Source: Prevotella sp. UBA3294 | GTDB lineage: Bacteria; Bacteroidota; Bacteroidia; Bacteroidales; Bacteroidaceae | Direction of reading: 5' to 3' | Assembly: GCA_002361535.1 (NCBI GenBank) | Contig: DETG01000029.1 | Span: 3,060-14,325, forward strand | DNA: 11,266 nt | Shown: piece after piece, positions 5,295 through 10,232 of the stretch | How the letters are laid out: every line of letters starts with the position of its first letter | Position numbering within the stretch: the stretch's first letter is position 1 | Made by a program: the position numbers and the translations under genes | Notes under the pieces: model-generated | The model's input: the letters and a program-made list of their open reading frames with translations, nothing else | What the model was told of the DNA's origin: nothing | Database searches by the model: none

Positions 5295-5906
5295 TTATAT
5301 GAGATGCCGTTCCATAGCTATGCGTACCAGGGAGGCCGTGTTGTTGCATCCCAATTTCTGACGGATATATTTCGTATAGCTATGGACGGTCTCGAATCCT
5401 AAGTGCAGTTTGTCGGCTATCTGTTTCATGGTGTTACCTTCGACTATCAGCCGAAGGATCTCTCGCTCACGGATGGTGAGCTCGGGGGGTGCCTCGCTTT
5501 GTCCGATCATCAGATTACGAGACTCCTTACAGATAAAGAATTCGCCTCCGGCCACTGCACAGATCCCTTCAATCAATTCCTCGGTACTGCTGTTCTTCAG
5601 GATATAGCCATGGGCACCGTTCTCTTTGGCCCGTTGGATAACAGAGGGCTCGGCATAGGTGGTAAGGACAATGATGCGCAGGGTGGGGCAGAGTGACACG
5701 AACTCTTTGATGGCATCGATGCCATCACCATCGGGCATGGCCACATCCAGTAACAGAATATCGGGACGGTGAAGGGAAATCAGGTCGGCACTTTCCTCAA
5801 GTGTATTGGCAATGGCAAGCACTTTGATGCCTTCTATCCCGTCAATAAGACCGGCTATTCCATTTGCCACCAGACGGTGGTCGTCGGCGATGATGACATT
5901 CTTCAT
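5295..5906 (-). CDS. NarL/FixJ-type response regulator with LuxR-type HTH
   Basis: This is a 203-residue two-component transcription factor. The receiver domain (about 1-118) has the acidic pair D8-D9, phospho-acceptor D54 in LLLDVAMPDGDG, switch residue T82/T83 and conserved K104. The C-terminal LuxR-type helix-turn-helix spans about 142-203. It includes LTIREREILRLIVEGNTMKQ (143-162) and the recognition region around FETVHSYTKYIRQKLG (171-186). All phosphorelay residues are present. The gene follows the TPR histidine kinase gene on the same strand, so they form a likely cognate pair. The 72-bp gap contains a separate promoter with a 15-bp box identical to one in the ompA-like promoter, which suggests autoregulation. 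The 3' end abuts the convergent yggS stop codon. Recognition of the box by this protein is inferred, not shown. Confidence 0.93.
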   Translation of the reverse strand: MKNVIIADDHRLVANGIAGLIDGIEGIKVLAIANTLEESADLISLHRPDILLLDVAMPDGDGIDAIKEFVSLCPTLRIIVLTTYAEPSVIQRAKENGAHGYILKNSSTEELIEGICAVAGGEFFICKESRNLMIGQSEAPPELTIREREILRLIVEGNTMKQIADKLHLGFETVHSYTKYIRQKLGCNNTASLVRIAMERHLI

Positions 5907-5930
5907 TTCATTGTCAGTTTGTTTCGGTTA

Positions 5931-5962
5931 CAAAGGTACGGAGTTTCATTGAATCTGACAAT
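5931..5962 (-). promoter_or_regulatory. Promoter of the response regulator gene
   Basis: On the minus strand, TACCTTTG (5938-5931) is a perfect -7 element and ATTG (5962-5959) is the -33 element 20 bp upstream. The transcript would start near 5925, about 20 bases before the ATG. The regulator can thus be made independently of the kinase. The -33 element lies inside the shared 15-bp box. Confidence 0.7.
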
Positions 5963-5972
5963 CCCCCAAATG
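5958..5972 (-). promoter_or_regulatory. Putative regulator-binding box (copy 1, response regulator promoter)
   Basis: The minus strand reads CATTTGGGGGATTGT, identical over 15 bases to 7942-7956 on the plus strand. It ends 19 bp before the -7 element, exactly as in the other copy. An upstream CCC (5976-5974) gives an imperfect dyad, CCC-N6-GGG. It covers the -33 element, consistent with repression or with close class-II-type activation. Confidence 0.6.
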
Positions 5973-5978
5973 TGGGTT

Positions 5979-7874
5979 TTATGGCTTATTTCTGATCTCG
6001 ATATTCACTTCAGTACCTTCGTGTGGCTTGGACAGAATGGTCAGCGTTCCGCCTATGCTGTTTACCCGTTGTCGGAGATTACTGAGTCCCATGCCTTTCT
6101 CGTGATCCTCATCAGTGATGCCTCGTCCGTCATCGCTCACATTGATAGCCGTTACCTCTTCATCGACAAACAGTTGAACGTGGATATGTTTGGCTTGGGC
6201 ACTTTTTACCGCATTGTTCACCAGTTCATATACCATACAATAGATGGCTTCCTCTTTCTGCTTGTCTAACCGTTCCTCTTTCCCGATGAACGAAAATGAC
6301 ACATTTTTGAGGGTCTGGCAATAGTCGCGTAAAGCCACTCGCAGCCCATAGCGGTTCAAAGAGTCAGGGAGGAGATGGTGACTCACATGGCGCATTTCTC
6401 GGATGGCCTCGTCTGCCAAAGCAATGGTAGTGGTGCTTTCCTTGGGTAGGTTCTGTTTCAGTGCTGTCAGCGTACCTCCTAACCGGTCGTGCAGGTCGCG
6501 GGCTATCCTTACCCGTTCGGCTATCTCACCGTCAAGACGGGCCTGGATGAGAGCTGTCCGACGTTTCAGACGGATACCTCGCCACAACAGGAAGAACACA
6601 CCGGCTGTGAGTAACAATACCAGTGCCGTGAGGATACCACCCCAGAGGAACCATCGTTTCTCTTTCTTCAGCCGTTCTATCTGTGATTCCTTTTCTTTGG
6701 TTTGGTAGAGCACCTCCATCTGACTCAGACTACTCTGGTAGTTCTTGGTGGCGAAGCGTTCCATCATCGCGCGTACCTTCTTGATATAGAGAAGGGTCTT
6801 GCTCTGATCTCCTAAGTGCATATAGATGGTGGAGAGCATTTCGTAGCTTCCCACATCACTGTATGTCGCCTCCTCATCGTTCTCGTGAACGGAGCGTAGC
6901 GCATGGTGAAGAGCCTGCTGCCAGTTGCCCTCGTGCATGGCCACCATGGCGGCTGCGACATGGATGTCATAGCGGTTCTCACTCATCAGCTCCCCGTTAT
7001 CGTAGGTCAGAGCCTCCTCGGCGTATGCCTTGGCTTTCTGTAAATCCTCATGACCGCTCATCAGATGCATCTTCACCAACGACACGAGAATCTCAGAGTA
7101 GTCGCCAGGTTCCTCTTGTCGGTGGGTATGATAATAAGCATAGGCGAAGTTGATGTTCTGTCGAACCTGCTCATACTTACCCTGGTCAAGATAGATCTTC
7201 ACCAGTCCTTTTCTTGGCAGTGCCATCATCAGGGAGTCCTTGGATGCCGTTCCTGTCTTGATGGCCTGTGTATAGTGAAACTCTGCTTTCTCGTTGTTAC
7301 CCATCGAAAGGTAGAGTTCTGCCACATTATGATGGAGGATGGTCTGACTCTCTAACCAGTTGTATCTCTCGAAGATGGGCAGTGCTTTCTGGTAGTACTC
7401 GATAGCAAGCAGTGCTTTGTCTTGCATGTTGTAAAGATTTCCGATGGCTCCGTAGAGCTGCGACAGGTTGTCGTCGATGTCACTCACCTTGTATCGCTTG
7501 TCGTTTCTCATCGAGTCGGTTACGGCCAGGGCTTGCTGGAAATACCCCAATGCCTTATCATGCTCATCCCGACCGTAAGCCATCAGTCCTAAGTTATACC
7601 AAGCACTCTCCCGTGCATTCAGGGCATTCAGTTCATACGAGAGGGCCAGCGCCTTGCGGGCATACAGCATGCAGCGGTCATGACTGGTGTTACGATAGCC
7701 CGACATCAGGTTCAGATAGACTCTCAGCAGATCCTTTCCCTTGGGCGGATTGTCACTGCGTAACGCCGTCTCCAACGAATCCACATGTCGGTTTCGGTGG
7801 TCTTCGTAGCCCATGACTGTACTGATGCCTGTCAGTAACAGAACCATGATGATGATGGCGATCTTCCTTTCCAT
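5979..7874 (-). CDS. TPR-containing sensor histidine kinase (HisKA_3/NarX type)
   Basis: This membrane sensor kinase has 631 residues from the ATG at 7874. It carries an N-terminal signal sequence (about 1-22), then a helical tetratricopeptide-repeat region in the periplasm (about 45-375; clear repeat pieces include AWYNLGLMAYGRDEHDKALG, 91-110, and LSTIYMHLGDQSKTLLYIKK, 347-366). A short coiled coil (about 383-407) and a transmembrane helix (about 408-432) follow. The cytoplasmic kinase has the HisKA_3 motif RIARDLHDRLGGTLTALK with phospho-acceptor H462, and the ATPase motifs YELVNNAVKSA (549-559, N box), DDGRG (581-585) and GMGLSNLRQR (594-603). The next gene downstream is its likely partner regulator. 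An in-frame ATG five codons upstream (7889) overlaps the predicted -7 element and is rejected. The signal sensed is unknown; TPRs suggest protein or peptide contact. Confidence 0.92.
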   Translation of the reverse strand: MERKIAIIIMVLLLTGISTVMGYEDHRNRHVDSLETALRSDNPPKGKDLLRVYLNLMSGYRNTSHDRCMLYARKALALSYELNALNARESAWYNLGLMAYGRDEHDKALGYFQQALAVTDSMRNDKRYKVSDIDDNLSQLYGAIGNLYNMQDKALLAIEYYQKALPIFERYNWLESQTILHHNVAELYLSMGNNEKAEFHYTQAIKTGTASKDSLMMALPRKGLVKIYLDQGKYEQVRQNINFAYAYYHTHRQEEPGDYSEILVSLVKMHLMSGHEDLQKAKAYAEEALTYDNGELMSENRYDIHVAAAMVAMHEGNWQQALHHALRSVHENDEEATYSDVGSYEMLSTIYMHLGDQSKTLLYIKKVRAMMERFATKNYQSSLSQMEVLYQTKEKESQIERLKKEKRWFLWGGILTALVLLLTAGVFFLLWRGIRLKRRTALIQARLDGEIAERVRIARDLHDRLGGTLTALKQNLPKESTTTIALADEAIREMRHVSHHLLPDSLNRYGLRVALRDYCQTLKNVSFSFIGKEERLDKQKEEAIYCMVYELVNNAVKSAQAKHIHVQLFVDEEVTAINVSDDGRGITDEDHEKGMGLSNLRQRVNSIGGTLTILSKPHEGTEVNIEIRNKP

Positions 7875-7878
7875 GTTG

Positions 7879-7886
7879 CAAATATA
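7879..7886 (-). promoter_or_regulatory. -7 element candidate for the histidine kinase gene
   Basis: The minus strand reads TATATTTG (7886-7879), a perfect TAnnTTTG, within TGTATATTTGCAA, a 13-base string also found in the HD gene promoter. No good -33 element lies 19-21 bp upstream. The G of the motif is only four bases before the ATG at 7874, so the mRNA would have almost no leader. Confidence 0.45.
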
Positions 7887-7938
7887 CATAAAGTTTGTGA
7901 TATTCTGCGATTTGTCATGTTTTTTTCTATGTAAAAAG

Positions 7939-7956
7939 CCCCATTTGGGGGATTGT
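7939..7956 (+). promoter_or_regulatory. Putative regulator-binding box (copy 2, ompA-like promoter)
   Basis: CATTTGGGGGATTGT (7942-7956) repeats the box of the response regulator promoter. Together with the preceding CCC it forms the inverted repeat CCCC-ATTT-GGGG (7939-7950). It ends 19 bp before the -7 element, as in copy 1, and overlaps the -33 element. It lies between the divergent kinase and ompA-like genes, so it could affect both. Confidence 0.6.
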
Positions 7957-7983
7957 AGGGATCAATTATAGTTCGTATCTTTG
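7952..7983 (+). promoter_or_regulatory. Promoter of the ompA-like/lipoprotein operon
   Basis: ATTG (7952-7955) and TATCTTTG (7976-7983) are spaced by 20 bp and match the Bacteroidetes promoter form. Transcription should start near 7989, leaving a leader of about 30 bases, A-rich and without Shine-Dalgarno, before the ATG at 8020. Confidence 0.72.
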
Positions 7984-8019
7984 TCACCAAATCATAAATA
8001 ATTACCAAACTAAGAACAA

Positions 8020-9288
8020 ATGAATATGAAAAGACTTATTTTGATGATGGCGGTTGTAGCCTTTGCTATGAATGCCGATGCACAGGGATGGCTGAAGAAA
8101 CTCGGTGAGAAAGCCGTGGAGAAAGCCAAGGAGAAGGTTGAGAAGAAAGTGGAGAAGACGGTGGAGAAGAAAGCCGACGAGGTGCTCAACGGAGGTAACA
8201 GTTCTTCTACAGGTGACTATGGCGATGTCGATGATTATCAGAATGATACGAAGAACGTGAAGAACGACTTCGTGCGTGGCTCTGTCGTGATGTTCGAGGA
8301 TGACTTTGCCGGCGAACAGGTGGGTGAGTTCCCCTCGAAGTGGGATCTTGTCAGGGGTAGTGCAGAGGTGGCTGTTATCAATGGCGTGAAGTGTATTGAG
8401 ATGGACAAGCACGACTGTTGGATCTCGCCGCTCGTCAAAGGCGGTCTCAAGAACTATCTGGGCGACGTGTTCACCATCGAGTACGATATGCTCTATGATG
8501 ACAGGGAGAAGAACGGTGCACCCTCGATAGAATTTGATATTATGCATGAATCCGAGCCGAGAGATAATGAGTTGTTTACAATCACTTATGATTTTTCATA
8601 CGACAAGCACACATTCGATTGCTCTTATTGTCTGACCTCTGAGCCTTCTTTCAGGCATAAGGAAGGACATGCAAGTTCTCAGGCTGGTCCCCTTAATGAT
8701 GCCCGCTGGCACCACTATGCCCTGTCGTTCAACAAACGTGCCATCAAATTCTATGTCGATGGCCGTCGCGTGATCAATGTGCCGAATGCCAAGCCGGGTG
8801 CAGGATGGGTGACGTGGTTCGCCCGTGGTGGCAGCAAGCACACCTATATGAAGAATGTGGTCATTGCCAAGGGTGCTGTAGAGCTTTACGAGCGCAATGC
8901 TACTGACATCGATGCCAAGGTGGCAGCCGTCGAGAAGGCCATCGCCGAGACGGGTAAGTTCGTGACCAACAACATCCTCTTCGAGACGGGCAAGGCGACG
9001 CTCAAGTCGGAGTCGATGGAGGAGATCCAAAGGGTGGCCGAGTATATGAAGAAGAACGCAAGCGTGCGCTTTGAAGTGCAGGGCCATACTGACAACCAAG
9101 GCTCTGATGCCGTCAATGATCCGCTGTCGCAGCAACGTGCTGAGGCTGTGGTGAAGGCTCTTGAAAGTCTTGGTGTTGACGGTTTTAACCTCAGGGCAGT
9201 AGGAAAGGGATCGCATGAGCCCGTTGCTGACAACAAGACAGAATCCGGACGTGCCAAGAATCGCCGCGTGGAGTTCATCAAGAAGTGA
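8020..9288 (+). CDS. Exported OmpA-domain protein with Lys/Glu coiled coil and LamG-like domain
   Basis: This 422-residue envelope protein probably anchors to peptidoglycan. A signal peptide (about 1-21, MNADAQ cleavage region) is followed by a Lys/Glu-rich amphipathic helix (24-55, repeats of VEK/KVEK). A Ser/Gly/Asp linker leads to a beta-rich domain (about 88-292) that resembles a laminin-G/concanavalin fold. That domain contains FEDDFAGEQVGEFPSKWDL at its start and WHHYALSFNKRAIKFYVDGR at 230-249. The C-terminal OmpA domain (about 315-422) has FETGKATLKSES, VQGHTDNQGSDAVNDPLSQQ (353-372), then RAEAV, and AKNRRVEFIKK, the usual peptidoglycan-binding pattern (D358, R373 and the final RR). 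There is no N-terminal outer-membrane barrel, so this is not classical OmpA. The start could also be the ATG two codons later (8026). The lipoprotein gene follows after 20 bp, and the promoter carries the shared box. Confidence 0.9.
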   Translation: MNMKRLILMMAVVAFAMNADAQGWLKKLGEKAVEKAKEKVEKKVEKTVEKKADEVLNGGNSSSTGDYGDVDDYQNDTKNVKNDFVRGSVVMFEDDFAGEQVGEFPSKWDLVRGSAEVAVINGVKCIEMDKHDCWISPLVKGGLKNYLGDVFTIEYDMLYDDREKNGAPSIEFDIMHESEPRDNELFTITYDFSYDKHTFDCSYCLTSEPSFRHKEGHASSQAGPLNDARWHHYALSFNKRAIKFYVDGRRVINVPNAKPGAGWVTWFARGGSKHTYMKNVVIAKGAVELYERNATDIDAKVAAVEKAIAETGKFVTNNILFETGKATLKSESMEEIQRVAEYMKKNASVRFEVQGHTDNQGSDAVNDPLSQQRAEAVVKALESLGVDGFNLRAVGKGSHEPVADNKTESGRAKNRRVEFIKK

Positions 9289-9308: not shown

Positions 9309-10232
9309 ATGAAGAAAGTATTATCTGCAATGTTCGTGCTCGCCATCGGTCTATGTTCTTGTGGTGGCGGAAAGAGTGGAGGTTCAGCCTCGGGTAGTGA
9401 ATCAGGTTCGGTTAGCGGACTGGAAGACGGAAAGTGGCCGGCAGCCGTCTATGACAAGTATGGCATCCCTGAAATAGAAACGAAGGGAAAGATCGTTTTT
9501 ACACAACTCACCGATGAAGACAACTCATATCAGTATCGCGTTGACTACAAAGGGGTGACCAAAGAGGAGATGCAAGCCTGGGTGAAGAAACTCGAAGAGA
9601 AGGGTTTCCGTATTCCCAAATACACCAAGGAACGGTTCGATGCAGGCCGTGGCGATTTAGATGCTGTCGTCTATCAACCAGAAGAGGGGAAGGACATGGG
9701 CTTGAGGGTGAGCTACGACTTCGAACACGACATGGATTTCGAGTACTATGCCGATGAGCCCAATCCCGCCTTCGAGATCACGGAACGCGATGAGCAGTAT
9801 TTTATCGTCTATAATTTCGCAGTATCACTCTTCCATATCGACAACGCTCCGGAAGTGGAAGGTGCCTTCGAGGCTATTGGCGTGAAGGCAGAGGACCTGA
9901 AAGGAATCCCCAACGTACGACGGATCAAAGCCTCGGGCAACGACAGAGGCGGTTCGATAGGCATCGCTTTCTACGGCGATCACCAGTTAACGGCAGAAGA
10001 CTTCGATGCTGTCCATGCCAAGATGGCCGATGTGCTTGAAGCCAAGGGGGCTAAGTTTACCCAGACACTGAGTGGGAAGGAGTGTACCGCTGAACAACTG
10101 AAAGCAGACAAGATCCGGTCATATACAGTGGAGATCAACGGGAATAAGTATATGATGCTGTTTTTCTCCGATGACCGTGTCGGTGACTTCGGCGGTGGCG
10201 GAAACTTCAACTTTACTAAAACGACGAGATAA
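9309..10232 (+). CDS. Lipoprotein of unknown function, 307 residues
   Basis: This is an exported lipoprotein. A short basic start and apolar core lead to LCSC, with C18 the likely lipidated cysteine. A flexible Gly/Ser-rich linker (19-37) follows, and the mature domain begins near WPAAVYDKYGIPEIE (43-57). There is no acidic surface-export signal right after the cysteine, so a periplasm-facing location is more likely than the cell surface. The mature part seems to hold two related alpha/beta halves. VTKEEMQAWVKKLEEKGFR (83-101) resembles LTAEDFDAVHAKMADVLEAK (227-246), each followed by strand-rich sequence. This may be an internal duplication. I do not recognise a named family with confidence. 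The gene is 20 bp behind the ompA-like gene and shares its promoter. The terminator 17 bp after the stop closes the operon. A joint envelope function is inferred from this linkage only. Confidence 0.85.
   Translation: MKKVLSAMFVLAIGLCSCGGGKSGGSASGSESGSVSGLEDGKWPAAVYDKYGIPEIETKGKIVFTQLTDEDNSYQYRVDYKGVTKEEMQAWVKKLEEKGFRIPKYTKERFDAGRGDLDAVVYQPEEGKDMGLRVSYDFEHDMDFEYYADEPNPAFEITERDEQYFIVYNFAVSLFHIDNAPEVEGAFEAIGVKAEDLKGIPNVRRIKASGNDRGGSIGIAFYGDHQLTAEDFDAVHAKMADVLEAKGAKFTQTLSGKECTAEQLKADKIRSYTVEINGNKYMMLFFSDDRVGDFGGGGNFNFTKTTR

Follow-up and report, generated by a model that had tools for sequence, protein, structure and literature searches.

A stretch of 11,266 nucleotides (nt) from Prevotella sp. 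UBA3294 (assembly GCA_002361535.1, contig DETG01000029.1, positions 3,060 to 14,325 of the forward strand), referred to below as the window, contains the genes of a sensor kinase and a response regulator and, divergent to the kinase gene, a gene for an exported OmpA-type protein. The corresponding genome assembly comprises 2.73 Mb and is 80.7% complete. We analyzed a sequence element that is present in the promoters of both the regulator gene and the OmpA-type gene and that is a putative operator of the regulator. The locus has the following features:

5295..5906, minus strand: response regulator gene (203 amino acids; Pfam PF00072, E 2.1e-22, and PF00196, E 2.5e-15)
5931..5938, minus strand: -7 element TACCTTTG of the regulator promoter, predicted +1 near 5926
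5959..5962, minus strand: -33-like element ATTG of the regulator promoter, abutting the putative operator
5962..5977, minus strand: putative operator of the regulator promoter, ACCCACA-TT-TGGGGGA, 23 nt before the -7 element and sharing 11 bases with 5958-5972
5979..7874, minus strand: sensor kinase gene with TPR region, HisKA_3 (PF07730) and HATPase_c (PF02518)
7879..7886, minus strand: -7 element TATATTTG of the kinase promoter, 4 nt before the ATG
7937..7952, plus strand: putative operator of the OmpA-type promoter, AGCCCCA-TT-TGGGGGA, 23 nt before the -7 element and sharing 11 bases with 7942-7956
7952..7955, plus strand: -33-like element ATTG of the OmpA-type promoter, read from the sequence
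7976..7983, plus strand: -7 element TATCTTTG of the OmpA-type promoter, predicted +1 near 7988
8020..9288, plus strand: putative target gene for an exported protein with a C-terminal OmpA domain (422 amino acids; PF00691, E 4.3e-22)
9309..10232, plus strand: lipoprotein-like gene (307 amino acids), 20 nt after the OmpA-type gene

The regulator consists of a receiver domain followed by a LuxR/GerE-type helix-turn-helix (HTH) domain, with FETVHSYTK as recognition helix in the alignment. Both Pfam matches exceed their cut-offs and place the protein among the NarL/FixJ response regulators with LuxR-type HTH. Its relatives in the PDB are DesR, DevR, VraR, RcsB, and NarL, and its score for the named family of E. 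coli NarL (NF007935) is 97.9 bits at a cut-off of 250. The upstream gene encodes a HisKA_3-type kinase whose tetratricopeptide repeat (TPR) region lies, as read by eye, between two hydrophobic segments. The start codon of this gene was set at 7874, though the list of open reading frames starts it at 7889, because the -7 element falls between the two candidate ATGs. The gap between the kinase and regulator genes is 72 nt. The OmpA-type protein also has a weak LamG-like segment (PF13385, E 5.4e-05, under the curated cut-off). The lipoprotein-like gene is probably the second gene of the target transcript; the lipoprotein signal of its product was read by eye, and no Pfam or NCBIfam family matched it.

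The initial annotation had reported two exact copies of a 15-mer, CATTTGGGGGATTGT, and both were found, at 5958-5972 on the minus strand inside the kinase-regulator gap and at 7942-7956 on the plus strand before the OmpA-type gene. Its description of their surroundings was also accurate: in both copies the 15-mer ends 19 nt before a -7 element of the form TAnCTTTG, the bases after the -7 element agree (TAACC and TCACC), and an A-rich stretch and a C/G dyad are present on the 5′ side. With up to three mismatches, the 15-mer has three matches in the window compared to 0.34 expected, a number reached in none of 200 dinucleotide shuffles; the third match (7739-7753) lies within the kinase gene. 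The window holds one other cluster of repeated 15-mers, which is palindromic. Since 17 of 60 dinucleotide shuffles of the window contained at least one repeated 15-mer, the identity of the two copies is weak evidence, and the claim that they are very unlikely to occur by chance did not hold on this ground. It did hold on another, because the identical promoter position and the conservation described below exclude chance.

The 15-mer does not cover the whole site. As judged from related loci, it represents the right (3′) portion of an inverted repeat of 16 bp, ACCCMCA-NN-TGGGGGA, which consists of two 7-mers and a 2-bp centre (7-2-7). If TAnnTTTG is placed at positions -12 to -5, where it was mapped in Flavobacterium psychrophilum (PMC9723704), the repeat is centred at about -43.5. 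In the regulator promoter it starts one nucleotide past the kinase stop codon. The consensus of 41 sites reads ACCCcCATTTGGGGGaTTG, followed by a weakly conserved spacer and TA.CTTTG; an A is found in 88, 95, and 98% of the sites at three of the four places preceding the repeat and in 62% at the fourth.

In the window sequence, the kinase promoter has no operator at the -43 position. The OmpA-side repeat lies 50 nt from the kinase -7 element on the opposite side, at about -70.5 relative to the kinase. Because the -7 element ends 4 nt before the ATG, the kinase mRNA is predicted to be leaderless, starting at 7874. Among 69 cluster representatives, this distance was 4 nt in 13 and 8 nt in 21, and differential RNA sequencing of Bacteroides thetaiotaomicron includes sensor kinases among the messages with 5′ untranslated regions shorter than 10 nt (PMC7366714). 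In the clade of the window, the distances between the divergent box and the kinase -7 element cluster at 30, 37-40, 48-50, and 60-61 nt in the 16 representatives with boxes within 70 nt (resultant 0.87; as high in 0 of 5000 uniform draws, a null model that ignores kinship). This set does not include five representatives whose boxes lie at 85-178 nt, and L140 was taken as 40 nt, the other estimate being 97. This phasing by helical turns is suggestive only.

For the comparison of related loci, species genomes were searched with a kinase profile and the best 80 of 171 relatives, from Prevotellaceae and other Bacteroidota, were combined with the window and five further loci to give 86 loci (given below by L numbers, genomes by G numbers). 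The regulator follows the kinase in 82 of them, and none was found within the searched distance in the other four. Forty-two loci have a regulator of the window type and 40, two of them distant, one of a second clade. A box was counted when its score was at least 8/10, according to a scheme devised after seeing the sites and applied identically to the background. Among the 42 window-type loci, a scored box preceded the divergent -7 element in 26 (29 with a -7 element scanned; 25 boxes at 23 nt, one at 22 nt) and the regulator -7 element in 16 (19 scanned; all at 23 nt), the kinase-regulator gap measuring at least 60 nt in 22 loci. Before the kinase -7 element there was none (0/42, 39 scanned). 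Thus, 41 of the 42 scored boxes stand exactly 23 nt before the -7 element. With one representative per 80% kinase cluster the result was similar, with 22/32 boxes at the divergent (21 at 23 nt) and 14/32 at the regulator promoter (14 at 23 nt), and the nearest relative (L101; kinase 85% and regulator 91% identical) has both boxes with an altered spacer. Of the 633 other TANNTTTG sites in these loci, six reached the box score, and four of the six belong to such systems: two (L071, L083) are the divergent promoter located further upstream, and two are at a further kinase fragment in L130. L048 is without assignment and L125 looks like chance.

Several of these loci have additional features. In L033, a small lipoprotein-like gene, recognized by eye, stands between kinase and regulator and is itself preceded by the operator, so that the feedback transcript would include an extra envelope gene; the gap in L078 has the same size. 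L130 contains two further kinases of the same kind, one with its own regulator and the other an N-terminal fragment that adjoins promoter palindromes resembling CCACCCC..GGGGTGG. Among the loci L071-L150, a ruminant or the rumen is mentioned in the record titles of 23 of the 80, and a further 27 carry RUG numbers, which we take to denote rumen genomes, so the system may be tied to the ruminant habitat. The window also holds, at 1771-2415 on the minus strand, a gene for a DUF4923 lipocalin-like protein (E 6.3e-56), which has no relation to the box.

In the genomes searched, the box with its promoter is confined to this locus. No further exact copy of the 15-mer was found in the window's own genome at its given completeness; four other matches with two mismatches were present (control pattern: one), and none had TANNTTTG within 60 nt of the box start. 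Two further proteins of this genome match the regulator, both weakly. Among 150 genomes of the genus, the box combined with TANNTTTG at a gap of 10 to 24 nt occurred at six places in five genomes, invariably with a gap of 19 nt. These five all belong to the 19 genomes in which the kinase was matched at E 1e-60, weakly in two of the 19, and the composite site was not found in the 131 genomes without such a match. A slightly wider pattern matched at ten places in 6 of the 150 genomes, all at this locus. In six genomes with a window-type regulator (at least 50% identical to that of the window), a still wider pattern gave 12 matches, exactly two per genome and one per promoter, all within the locus, and 0 matches with the reversed control pattern. 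No further target was detected in these six genomes with the composite pattern, half-site and degenerate targets lying outside this search. Neither absence of the box from both promoters in relatives nor scattering over non-promoter positions of the genome, the outcomes named beforehand as speaking against a regulator site, was seen.

Confinement to one locus bears on two other explanations. If the box were instead an extended -33 promoter element recognized by a sigma factor, its contact with the -33 element and its phasing to the -7 element would be accounted for. Such a general element should, however, recur genome-wide, and the composite was found just twice per genome, at a single locus; the dyad extends upstream of -33, and the second-clade sites described below occupy the same place with another sequence and no TTG. 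This explanation is scarcely credible, and a general promoter element was rejected on the confinement of the composite to one locus in six genomes. The two copies might also be identical by chance or stem from a recent, functionless promoter duplication, for which the repeated 15-mers in shuffled windows can be cited. Against it, box and -7 element agree while the spacers differ, as the consensus of the 41 sites shows, and the arrangement is conserved over many kinase clusters. Together with locus confinement and fixed spacing this led us to reject the explanation, whose likelihood is negligible.

The box accompanies the regulator and not the type of the target gene. An OmpA-type gene is divergent to the kinase in 46 of the 86 loci, some of the others being cut by contig ends. 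In other kinase loci the box stands before genes for immunoglobulin-like (Ig)/leucine-rich repeat (LRR), beta-helix, and barrel proteins. Of five divergent genes of non-OmpA type, one encodes an Ig-like protein that weakly matches LRR, two encode beta-helix proteins (an InlB-like repeat in the first, DUF5018 in the second), one an outer-membrane barrel, and one a protein without a family. Conversely, 30 loci with OmpA-type genes were fetched; 11 had the kinase adjacent, all 11 with an upstream palindrome core. The other 19 had no kinase in the fragment, and 17 of them were kept, the match having begun inside the protein in two. None of these 17 kinase-free homologues had a -7-linked site scoring above 6/10, and three lacked TANNTTTG within 450 nt. 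In G119, an OmpA-type homologue 80% identical to that of the window is kinase-free and boxless, while the kinase of this genome adjoins its own palindrome. The box as a property of OmpA-type genes was ruled out by the absence of a promoter-linked box in the 17 kinase-free homologues.

The second clade has a different operator, mostly CCACCCA-NN-TGGGTGG, at the same place of the promoter. A scored box preceded the divergent -7 element in 19 of 40 loci (35 scanned; 17 at 22 nt) and the kinase -7 element in 29 of 40 (40 scanned; 27 at 20 or 21 nt). Two sites within 450 nt of the kinase start were found in 23 of the 40 loci; in 22 of these 23 they are 39-42 bp apart, so that the site proximal to one promoter (about -41) is at the same time the distal site of the opposite promoter (about -81). 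When only one site is present, it lies 61-63 nt from the -7 element on both sides in 9 of 11 loci. A TTG at the -33 place follows the repeat in 35 of 42 window-type sites vs. 0 of 48 second-clade sites. The second-clade palindromes were also confined, with 17 of 18 lying within the locus in 11 second-clade genomes; exact CCACCCANNTGGGTGG occurred at 11 places in the 150 genomes, eight of them in the locus and the other three with AC or CC centres. Two distant homologues, L048 and L049, have a third type of palindrome in the kinase promoter (ACTCCCA-NN-AGTRGGG, then TATTG) 23 nt before the -7 element. One of the eight CCACCCANNTGGGTGG places in the locus, in G081 (L035:10485-10500), is an extra palindrome found downstream of the OmpA-type gene. 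It precedes the -7 element of a second gene by about 61 nt, as counted by eye, and this gene, whose product has an OmpA-type-like N-terminus, is a possible second target in that genome.

These geometries bear on the direction of control. The regulator could act through the same operator as a repressor that blocks polymerase at -43.5 until a signal relieves it, with negative autoregulation. The frequent TTG and the good -7 element of window-type promoters would suit this, since such promoters may be active unaided. Occlusion needs no base-exact spacing, yet window-type sites keep theirs almost without exception, and the second clade, without TTG, with paired sites about 40 bp apart and single sites at 61-63 nt, is better explained by activation. 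FimR, from a similarly built system, is an activator (PMC5706477). We consider repression unlikely.

The two operator types differ at the fifth base of the right arm. Among the representative sites, 35 of 36 of the window type have G at this position and none of the 36 has T; in the second clade, T is found there at 36 of 41. In a tree of 81 regulators, 24 of them without a typable site, all 28 with G-type sites only fall on one side of a branch supported by 100/99, and all 27 with T-type sites only fall on the other, together with two that have both types (L139, L145). The recognition helices contrast accordingly (HSYTK vs. NWYRK). In 41 readable window-type regulators the helix reads H/R-S/T-Y-T/M/A-K, and in the second clade N/K/S/R/G-W-Y-R-K in 38 of 40, with K-T-Y-R-K in the two distant members. 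The match to NarL (PDB 1a04) has stretches of equal length and was read as gap-free. On it, the differing places correspond to NarL residues 188, 189, and 191 and the common lysine to 192, with an offset of one allowed, as the first residue is presumably missing in 1a04. NarL residues 188, 189, and 192 contact DNA. Regulators need not bind beside their own genes, and another DNA-binding protein might read the box while the adjacent regulator binds elsewhere, the assignment of the operator being based on sequence comparison. This is highly unlikely, as the box type changes with the regulator clade, the composite is restricted to this locus in six genomes and missing from the 131 genomes of the genus without a kinase match, and the 7-2-7 geometry is known for this HTH family.

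Taken together, the box is probably an operator of the adjacent response regulator, centred near -43.5, through which the regulator would activate its own gene and the divergent envelope gene. The initial annotation had proposed a site of the adjacent NarL-type regulator with autoregulation and control of an envelope operon, and the comparative evidence supports such a role: the position is fixed, the composite is confined to one locus, it tracks the kinase-regulator pair, and the box type matches the clade with few mixed sites. The 7-2-7 dyad, the second operator type, the regulator copy as a site in the 72-nt gap, and the boxless kinase promoter go beyond that proposal. The computational analysis established the site, its geometry, conservation and locus confinement, and the joint change of operator with regulator clade and recognition helix. 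From the same data we infer binding by the regulator, a need for phosphorylation, and an activating effect; the fixed spacing and the second-clade pairs about 40 bp apart fit a contact with polymerase.

Several observations weigh against this interpretation. The promoter position is conserved in related loci and the box absent elsewhere, with exceptions. In 16 of 42 window-type loci there is no scored box before the divergent -7 element: in two (L071, L083) it lies further upstream, ten have a palindrome without TANNTTTG in reach, one scores 7, and three have none. No scored box is present in 6 of the 22 gaps of at least 60 nt, among them the gaps of 588-595 nt in L076 and L080 and that of L115, which has a palindrome without a -7 element. 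When the -7 condition was dropped, dyads upstream of kinase-free homologues scored 8 in L188 and 7 in L171 (L181: 6). G occupies the fifth place in 5 of 41 second-clade representative sites, and L145, the clearest exception, has a full CCCCCCA-TT-TGGGGGG site next to a second-clade regulator with NWYRK. The match of operator and helix reflects one deep split, i.e., a single evolutionary event, and supports recognition without proving it. The good -33 and -7 elements beside the site would suit a repressor, too. Finally, the target survey is limited by the 80.7% complete genome and by half-site or degenerate targets outside the search.

With the regulator as activator, a dimer of its phosphorylated form would bind the 7-2-7 repeat against the -33 element and recruit RNA polymerase to two promoters, its own and that of the divergent OmpA-type gene. 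Because the operator lies between the kinase and regulator genes, positive feedback would reach the regulator gene alone. The kinase would keep a separate boxless, probably leaderless promoter. It may feel the divergent operator from a distance (about -70.5), and weak control is possible because operator-kinase -7 distances cluster by helical turns in relatives.

In autoregulated divergent two-component loci, the regulator acts on transcription of its own gene and of a neighbouring, divergent target. The loci described here differ in that the window clade would feed back on the regulator gene alone via the promoter in the kinase-regulator gap, and the second clade would use two operators about 40 bp apart for both divergent promoters. 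The NarL heptamer is TACYYMT; compared with it by eye, ACCCCCA agrees at 4/7 and CCACCCA at 3/7 positions, all in the C-rich core. Unlike NarX/NarL, the systems considered here use half-sites TGGGGGA or TGGGTGG, a TPR sensor and Bacteroidota -33/-7 promoters, and two targets were found, vs. the global regulon of NarL. The window sites have the 7-2-7 inverted repeat that defines NarL operators, and the receiver with LuxR-type HTH and a site next to -35 are likewise shared with NarX/NarL (PMC7419079). E. coli NarL activates yeaR from a single 7-2-7 site just upstream of -35, and at ogt, with sites at -44.5 and -77.5, activation in derivatives was described from -44.5, -67.5 or -77.5 (PMC7419079). 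In Porphyromonas gingivalis, FimS is a kinase with periplasmic TPR repeats, and FimR activates fimbrial genes (PMC5706477). The combination of TPR sensor kinase and response regulator is common to both systems, and the window kinase partially matches NCBIfam FimS (NF053520), with 52.3 bits at a cut-off of 600. FimR binds an mfa1 promoter fragment in an electrophoretic mobility shift assay (PMC1974823); no operator sequence was found in the text of that report, so no operator comparison was possible. Neither operator of this study was found in 5.39 million open-licence papers searched by exact strings, where the only match concerns a human RNA, or in searches by topic, subscription papers being outside the scope. 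The system is thus known in kind, with a NarL-family regulator, a 7-2-7 operator, and an autoregulated divergent locus; the operator family with its two sequences, its presumed reader, and the small target set appear to be new as far as the open literature shows.

A broader interpretation can be offered tentatively, with slightly less confidence than an even chance would warrant. The loci may be self-contained cassettes of gut Bacteroidota, many of them from ruminants, in which TPR sensor, NarL-type regulator, and private operator remain linked and re-specify each other, the envelope or surface target being exchanged, and in which residues 188, 189, and 191 (NarL numbering) would set TGGGGGA vs. 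TGGGTGG. There would be two circuit designs, one with positive feedback on the regulator only from the gap operator and the kinase held at a separate leaderless promoter, the other with symmetric operators separated by about 40 bp, where the proximal site of either divergent promoter is also the distal site of its counterpart. To our knowledge, few regulator binding sites have been defined in Bacteroidota. Their promoters differ from those of E. coli, and here the site, its presumed reader, the promoter geometry, and a few probable targets can be read from the sequence, along with two natural specificity variants in the same position. Operator recognition and activation at such -33/-7 promoters thereby become open to direct tests, and the system would link an envelope-type sensor to surface proteins of otherwise unexplained role.

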